This document shows, in pieces, positions 17,595 to 53,409 of a stretch of 64,000 bases of DNA. The stretch comes from Sedimenticola sp. (GTDB lineage Bacteria; Pseudomonadota; Gammaproteobacteria; Chromatiales; Chromatiaceae). The stretch lies in assembly GCA_026992075.1 (NCBI GenBank), contig JALXAM010000038.1, forward strand, positions 62,001 through 126,000, given 5' to 3'. Below the pieces are notes generated by a model. It did no database searches. It had not been told where the DNA came from and saw only the letters and a list, made by a program, of their open reading frames with translations. Every line of letters starts with the position of its first letter. The stretch's first letter is position 1. The position numbers and the translations under genes are program-made.

Positions 17595-17700
17595 GCCGCT
17601 GTCCCGATGTTCGTAGCGGGGCTTCGGCAGCAGGGATGCTGCCGCAGAGCCTACAGGGATGTATTCACGGCGTCCCCGCTACAAACATCGGGACAGCGGC
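17595..17700 (+). repeat. Foldback repeat copy B: arms 17595-17621 / 17674-17700 (26/27 complementary), core 17622-17673
   Basis: Core cttcggcagcagggatgctgccgcagagcctacagggatgtattcacggcgt; TACAGGGATGTA at 17652-17663. Confidence 0.93.
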
Positions 17701-25170: not shown

Positions 25171-25192
25171 AGAACAACCTGTTGCGCCGGAA

Positions 25193-25300
25193 GGCCGCTG
25201 GCCGACCCTTGGTGGCGGGGTTTCGGCAGCAGGGATGCTGCCGCAAAGCCTACAGGGAGGTATTCACGGCGTCCCCGCCACCAAGGGTCGGCCAGCGGCC
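25193..25300 (+). repeat. Foldback repeat copy C: arms 25193-25220 / 25273-25300 (28/28 complementary), core 25221-25272
   Basis: Core tttcggcagcagggatgctgccgcaaagcctacagggaggtattcacggcgt; TACAGGGAGGTA at 25251-25262. Confidence 0.93.
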
Positions 25301-25368
25301 CTCGCGAAAGCATTGGAATCATCATGCCTGGTTGCCGGGCTTTGGCCGGGCAACTGAAACGCTTTCGG

Positions 25369-25476
25369 GGCCGGCGGAGGGGAGCTTGTAGCGGGAACGC
25401 CGTGAATACATCCCTGTAGGCTCCGCCTCGGCATCCCTGCCTCGGAGGTCCCGCTACAAGCCCCCCTCCGCCGGCC
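25369..25476 (-). repeat. Foldback repeat copy D: arms 25369-25396 / 25449-25476 (27/28 complementary), core 25397-25448 on minus strand
   Basis: Minus-strand core cctccgaggcagggatgccgaggcggagcctacagggatgtattcacggcgt; motif at 25407-25418. Confidence 0.93.
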
Positions 25477-27333: not shown

Positions 27334-27434
27334 GACCGGAAGGGGGTGTTCCAGAAAACGGCCGAGGCAGGATGCCGAGGCCGAGCCTACAGGGATGTAT
27401 TCACGGCGGTTTTCTGGAATACCCCCTTCCGGCC
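27334..27434 (+). repeat. Foldback repeat copy E: arms 27334-27359 / 27409-27434 (24/26 complementary), core 27360-27408
   Basis: Arms gaccggaagggggtgttccagaaaac are unrelated to copies A-D; core ggccgaggcaggatgccgaggccgagcctacagggatgtattcacggcg. Confidence 0.92.
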
Positions 27435-30280: not shown

Positions 30281-30649
30281 ATGTCCCATCCCATTCCCAC
30301 CGAACTCAACCTCCACCGCCTCTCCAGGGTGCTGGAGATCACTTTCGACAATGGCGAGTCATTCAAGCTGCCCGCCGAGTACCTGCGCGCCTGGTCCCCT
30401 TCCGCCGAGGTGATGGGTCACGGCCCCGGGCAGCGCAAGGTGCCCATCGGCATCGAGAAGGTGAACATCGACCAGATCGAACCGGTGGGCAACTACGCCA
30501 TCACCATCCACTTCGACGACGGCCACAACACCGGAATCTACTCCTGGGAAACCCTGTATAATCTGGGGAAGAACTACGAGGAGCTGTGGAACCGGTATCT
30601 TGAGGAGCTGAAGGAGGCCGGCTATACCCGCAAGGATCCCGAGTCCTAG
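30281..30649 (+). CDS. DUF971 family protein
   Basis: FDNGESFKLPAEYLRAWSPSAEV; IHFDDGHNTGIYSWETLYNLG. Confidence 0.9.
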   Translation: MSHPIPTELNLHRLSRVLEITFDNGESFKLPAEYLRAWSPSAEVMGHGPGQRKVPIGIEKVNIDQIEPVGNYAITIHFDDGHNTGIYSWETLYNLGKNYEELWNRYLEELKEAGYTRKDPES

Positions 30650-30658
30650 GCTTGACCC

Positions 30659-30966
30659 GTAGGTCGGGCTTCAGCCCGACAGATTGGGTGCTTGGTTTCA
30701 ATCCATTCGGGGGGCCGGTGGGGACTCCTTCCTGGCGGGGACGCCGTGAATACATCCCTGTAGGCTTTGCGGCAGCTTTGTAGCTTCGCAATCCATGTTA
30801 CGCTACAAAGTCCAGCCTCGCCATCCTTGGCGAGGCGTTCGCCAGCTGCGAAAATCCACTGGATTTTCGGTCTGGCTCACCCCTGCTGCCGAAACCCCGC
30901 CAGGAAGGAGTCCCCACCGGCCTTCAAGCTGTGTCACAAGGTTCGTCGGGCTGAAGCCCGACCTAC
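30659..30966. repeat. Composite: two inverted REP units (30659-30680, 30945-30966) bracketing foldback copy F
   Basis: GTAGGTCGGGCTTCAGCCCGAC ... GTCGGGCTGAAGCCCGACCTAC. Confidence 0.88.
30713..30922 (-). repeat. Foldback repeat copy F: arms 30713-30740 / 30895-30922 (28/28 complementary); core interrupted by about 105 bp
   Basis: Minus-strand core tttcggcagcaggg[insert]ctgccgcaaagcctacagggatgtattcacggcgt; insert 30776-30880 contains three hairpins. Confidence 0.9.
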
Positions 30967-31016
30967 AGGTATCGGGTTTTCCGTAATTGGGGGTGAACCC
31001 CACAAACGAGGTCGAC

Positions 31017-52955: not shown

Positions 52956-53312
52956 TCAGCGCTTGATGGGGCGCCGCGGTCCCTTGCGGGTACGGGCGTT
53001 GGTCTTGGTCCGCTGGCCACGCACCGGCAGCCCGCGGCGGTGGCGGATCCCGCGATTGCAGCCCAGGTCCATCAGGCGCTTGATGTTCATCGAGATCTCC
53101 CGCCGCAGATCGCCCTCCACCGTGTACTTGGCCACCTCGGCGCGCAGGCGATCCACCTCCTCTTCGCTCAGGTCCATAACCTTGCGATCGCGGGGCACTC
53201 CTGCGTCGTCGCAGATCTTCGCCGCACGCGAGCGGCCGATGCCGTAAATGGATGTCAGCGCAATGACCGCGTGCTTGCGGTCAGGAATGTTGACGCCTGC
53301 TATGCGGGCCAT
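52956..53312 (-). CDS. rpsM: 30S ribosomal protein S13
   Basis: [30 protein letters not shown]. Confidence 0.98.
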
Positions 53313-53409
53313 TCTCTTTTCTCCTGTGATTCAACTTCCAGCGCAACCGGCGCGAGGAAACGCGAAATTATAACCGGGTGCGCCAGGCCTTTCAATAGAG
53401 TTGCCAGAC

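Follow-up and report, generated by a model that had tools for sequence, protein, structure and literature searches.

The element examined here, F (30713–30922), lies in a window of 64,000 nucleotides from Sedimenticola sp., in the interior of a 145-kb contig (C38) of a 2.73 Mb genome in 76 contigs (G000). F fills the gap between a DUF971-type gene (30281–30649) and ubiE (start 31017) and is enclosed by a co-directional gene run. Two inverted GTAG-type REPs frame the element: the left unit, GTAGGTCGGGCTTCAGCCCGAC (30659–30680, plus strand), has its inverted partner on the right (30945–30966, minus strand). The bracketing by inverted REPs, already proposed in an initial annotation of the bare sequence, extends over 26 nt at 96% complementarity (30655–30680 and 30945–30970). 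The foldback between the REPs has an outer stem formed by a left arm of copy-specific sequence (30713–30740, plus strand) and a right arm (30895–30922, plus strand). The arms are 28 nt long and 100% complementary, as that annotation had read them, and a chance test with the arm's inner 21 nt gave two matches in the window against 0.01 expected. Inside the left arm, the conserved core CGCCGTGAATACATCCCTGTAGGCT (30742–30766, plus strand) contains the hairpin TACA-TCCC-TGTA (30751–30762), with a minus-strand AGGGAT loop. Next comes an inner host hairpin, whose 5′ strand CGGCAGC (30770–30776, plus strand) pairs with the 3′ strand GCTGCCG (30885–30891, plus strand).

The loop of this inner hairpin holds a nested module of 107 nt (30776–30882, minus strand) that scores 124.3 bits with a covariance model. 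In order, the module consists of GGGTGAG, hairpin 3, GAAC, hairpin 2, and hairpin 1, all on the minus strand. Sequence and alignment define hairpin 1 (30776–30810), formed by CTTTGTAGC and GCTACAAAG, whose inner loop reads ATGGAT on the minus strand, and hairpin 2 (30815–30836), which reads GCCTCGCC-AAGGAT-GGCGAGGC. Three consecutive foldbacks had been claimed within the loop, and all three are found where they were placed. The third (30849–30869) had been drawn too short, since GCCAG (30841–30845) also pairs with CTGGC (30872–30876). Hairpin 3 is a two-part stem (30841–30876), with GCCAG/CTGGC outside and CGAAAATCC/GGATTTTCG inside; both stems covary in other copies, and the extra GCCAG/CTGGC pairs do so in relatives. 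The insert size of 105 bp given originally requires correction, as F exceeds the short form by a net 102 bp (a loop of 154 nt versus 52 nt).

The foldback that hosts the module belongs to a large family in this genome. The core CGCCGTGAATACATCCCTGTAGGCT has 69 genome matches with up to three mismatches, 34 forward and 35 reverse, and a reversed-pattern control has none. Most foldback copies are of a short form of about 108 bp, against 210 bp with the module. Short copies have arms of ~27 bp and an inner region of 49–52 nt holding two hairpins, TACA-TCCC-TGTA and an intact inner hairpin with an ATCCCT loop. The window contains five further short copies (1073–1178, 17595–17700, 25190–25303, 25369–25476, and 27336–27432). 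Arms from different copies share a mean pairwise identity of only 54%; within a single copy, by contrast, the two arms pair at about 92% of their positions. The mismatches in these arms comprise 38 G·T and 45 A·C, and the host arms therefore carry no RNA strand bias.

GTAG-REPs accompany many of these foldbacks at fixed distances, on both sides in 26 of 70 and on one side in 18 of 70. None of the 70 has a wrongly oriented flanking REP, and two-sided REPs are always inverted. F meets two criteria for a GTAG-REP unit, namely a GTAG tag beside a short palindrome (GTAGGTCGGGCTTCAGCCCGAC on both sides) and an inverted REP pair as one REPIN-like unit. The same genome encodes a cognate RAYT gene (L157, 1353–1979; Y1_Tnp, E = 4e-12). 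This RAYT-like gene is bracketed by four copies of the REP of F, with an inverted pair on each side, the arrangement of a REPtron.

Sister genomes reveal how the unit changes at a fixed site. The closest sister, G002 (ubiE 96% identical), carries a REP–foldback–REP unit in the same gap, in which the module is absent and the interior is inverted between the REPs. A search for an orthologue of F without the insert, suggested in the initial annotation, thus succeeded in the nearest relative. The arms of F and G002 differ at two positions, both compensated (2/2), and the single arm change at another orthologous site (L174/L026) is compensated as well (1/1). At two more pairs of sites, L177/L022 and L169/L057, a different foldback lies between the same REPs. 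Among the other genus members with a readable F locus, G011, G012, and G008 lack the foldback. These comparisons establish that one orthologous site can have or lack the module, and they document inversion and co-change of the arms. They also demonstrate that the interior between the REPs can flip or be swapped: the frame stays while its content is inverted, as in G002, or exchanged for a different foldback.

The covariance model matches 29 modules in the genome of F (67–126 bits). In this model, both sides have changed in 14 of 33 pairs, and paired cells make up 95%. All 29 modules sit in foldbacks or foldback remnants, and none is adjacent to a tRNA gene (0/29). They form two lineages, one in the inner loop and a diverged one in the loop of the core hairpin, and some copies hold both. 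In both lineages, the minus-strand ANGGAT hexaloop becomes ANGG followed by the module, which replaces the loop end (ANGG^AT). About 15–16 copies, F included, bear the ~102-bp insert at the same inner loop, and the insert of F and that of a copy on contig C30 share 97% identity. The same module–foldback composite is present in two other genus members. Distances between modules show only a weak relation to those between their hosts (r = 0.20, P = 0.06), and this correlation decides neither for mobility of the module itself nor for recombination. One copy, L318 (C63:743–850), has a module linking half an inner hairpin to half a core hairpin, with the intervening stretch missing.

A search for the insert beyond F, also proposed at the outset, recovered it at other sites in the genome and in relatives. 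Within the class, inferred from genes and repeats to be Gammaproteobacteria, the model matches at least 35 of 229 sampled genomes (at least 33 of 196 genera); these counts are lower bounds, as only limited candidates were scored per genome. In a phylum-wide draw, nearly all matches fell within the same class, with one marginal outsider. An intact tRNA gene lies within 250 bp of 57 of the 120 matches examined. The 57 modules come from at least 24 genomes, and tandem arrays inflate their number; 38 are upstream of the tRNA and share its strand, 17 are downstream in antisense, and two are placed otherwise. Most tRNA-side modules are preceded by a tRNA-end fragment cut in a loop, either ...GTAGCTCAGTTGG| in the D-loop or antisense ...GGGGCGAGAGG| in the T-loop. 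The native T-loop sequence at the antisense junction is GG^ATTCGAACC, cut after GG. At L220 and L221, the two strands of the D-stem flank the module, the second coming after it; the far-side half of the loop stem is still present at tRNAs in a few cases only. A tandem array of seven units stands at a tRNA gene in G053 (L191, L195, L198), where each unit joins a module to 25 bp of the 5′ end of tRNA-Met; antisense modules lie on the 3′ side.

Other relatives occupy hairpins that are not tRNA loops. Both G101 and G113 carry the module in a hairpin homologous to the core hairpin (CCC..GGGTTCACGGCGTCC); G116 and G042 have it in unrelated perfect stems of 7–8 bp. Flank pairs with stems of at least 7 bp number seven, versus 1.1 in permutations (maximum of six in 5000), and some of these are self-complementary tRNA ends. 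Across all matches, the mean effect of flank complementarity is weak (P = 0.03) and is clear for long stems only. G116 also has dispersed inverted module pairs after ...ACAGGATTAAGCA (L233–L245), possibly another composite element. At six sites (L294, L230, L295, L297, L298, and L214), a protein gene runs directly into a module at its 3′ end and takes its stop codon from the module's GGGTGA or GGGTAA; by eye, these gene ends resemble xerD, rimK, and nrdJ products.

We interpret F as a three-layer nested element acting at the DNA level, composed of a REP frame, a host foldback, and a loop-sited module of a class-wide family, and give this reading a probability of about 0.58. This reading draws support from the coexistence of short forms with long ones, in which the module takes the exact place of the loop end. 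The two inverted GTAG-REPs of the outer layer are inferred to be mobilised in trans, probably by the genome's own RAYT/Y1 transposase. In the second layer, the long arms are demonstrably kept complementary despite divergence between copies and species. This upkeep would most likely come from hairpin repair or copying against itself, or from selection as a single-stranded hairpin. The third layer follows a clear pattern, that of an independent structured cassette of ~80–115 nt found just after GG in a hairpin loop, whether in the foldback (ANGG^AT) or in the tRNA fragments (D-loop, GG^T; antisense T-loop, GG^A). The nesting, the shared junction rule, the class-wide distribution, and the tRNA association are all directly observed.

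How the module reached these loops is inferred. It probably entered by insertion into an exposed loop, through an enzyme that is unidentified; no insertion or excision was seen. In the genome of F, there may have been two entries, one per host loop. Since each lineage keeps to a single loop there, most copies are explained by spread together with the host or by copy-to-copy recombination, and the pattern of one loop per lineage within the genus fits a single entry each with later recombination. The initial annotation had suggested that loops of these elements are insertion targets for other foldback sequences. This idea gains support from the two host-foldback loops, the unrelated stems, and the tRNA D- and T-loops, always after GG, although insertion itself was not observed. 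F itself carries no private insertion, because the module is common to about 15–16 inner-loop copies; the insert of F is an old lineage shared by many copies and no fresh event. More tentatively, and with less than even confidence, we propose a class-wide family of non-coding cassettes whose specific insertion target is a single-stranded hairpin loop, entered after GG; tRNA genes would offer such targets in their D- and T-loops, and repetitive palindromes in their own loops. Such cassettes could nest, because each brings new ANGGA loops of its own. The loop-sited relatives at tRNAs and palindromes suggest an undescribed kind of small loop-entering element.

The module might instead have no mobility of its own. 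One old capture per host loop would then have been followed by homologous recombination or gene conversion that added or removed the module copy by copy, F included. The single lineage per loop in this genome agrees with such a history, as do the swapped or inverted REP interiors at orthologous sites, the near-identity of the F and C30 inserts, and the recombinant copy L318, which joins both loops. It fails to account for the homologues of the module that occupy tRNA loops and unrelated stems in many families, or for the weak correlation of module distances with host distances, and we consider it rather unlikely. Misassembly has still less to recommend it. Palindromes and repeats are hard to assemble, and some G002 copies lie at contig ends, but F is internal to a 145-kb contig, several contigs hold about 15 more composites that share its junction, and two other genus members carry the same composite, so that an artefact is barely credible.

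A function at the RNA level is a further alternative. The minus-strand ANGGA hairpin loops correspond to the CsrA/RsmA motif, so that foldbacks and modules could be kept as parts of CsrA-binding RNAs. The ANGGAT loops are indeed kept while the stems change with compensation, TACAGGGATGT resembles the CsrA SELEX consensus, and the genome has a csrA gene. Module pairs favour G·U over A·C by 33 to 18 (in an alignment fitted to the structure), and some modules are sense-oriented at gene 3′ ends. A CsrA/RsmA sponge should show ANGGA in hairpin loops, which sequence and alignments confirm, and consistent transcription and maintenance of the sense strand, for which no support was found: orientation in co-directional gene contexts is 8 versus 8 (from rough ORF calls), the sister species has F the other way round, and the host arms have no G·U bias. 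With 17 tRNA-side modules antisense, we regard this explanation as improbable, more so than recombination of an immobile module, and retain the three-layer DNA element as the preferred reading.

If the nested DNA element is real, it would add a target rule (a hairpin loop after GG) to those of the few known elements that recognise the fold of DNA or RNA instead of the sequence. The arms, which diverge between orthologues yet stay perfectly paired, offer a natural system for measuring palindrome upkeep. Among known families, Rfam gave nothing relevant at F or at the module relatives with gathering or relaxed thresholds; elsewhere in the window, it identified an Alpha operon ribosome binding site (RF00140, 41.4 bits; 53280–53386, minus strand). 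Plasmid and phage collections gave no match, and the literature searched on CsrA/RsmA repeats, tRNA-associated repeats, and the module motif contained no description of the module.

The outer frame has a known counterpart. GTAG-tagged REPs, REP dimers, and REPINs with RAYT transposases constitute a known superfamily (Di Nocera et al. 2013, PMC3733652), which the flanking units of F resemble in their GTAG tag and palindrome, inverted intergenic arrangement, and RAYT gene with the same REP. REP dimers inside longer palindromes have been reported in Anabaena variabilis and Halothiobacillus neapolitanus (PMC3733652); the REPs of F, in contrast, bracket a large foldback with copy-specific arms and a nested module. 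Like MITEs, RPE, and CGTC-REPs, the module is small, non-coding, palindromic, and present in many copies, but terminal inverted repeats are missing, and a hairpin loop determines where it sits. It shares with CsrA/RsmA-binding RNAs of the CsrB and RsmZ type several one-strand hairpins with ANGGA loops, unlike them in that the foldback shows no strand-specific maintenance and has no Rfam match. E. coli rtT was considered as a member of the same family and rejected, the best match of the module reaching 7.6 bits (E = 0.18), which does not indicate homology. The tRNA-side arrangement nevertheless resembles it: E. coli tyrT/rtT (RttR, next to tRNA-Tyr) combines the 3′ end of a tRNA, truncated in the T-arm, with a structured sequence, in tandem, beside an intact tRNA. 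The same combination of tRNA-end fragment and structured unit beside an intact tRNA occurs among the relatives in other genomes and at no module in the genome of F. If the nested-element reading is correct, it would link swollen palindromic repeats with tandem tRNA-end repeats of the tyrT/rtT kind, which are usually treated apart.
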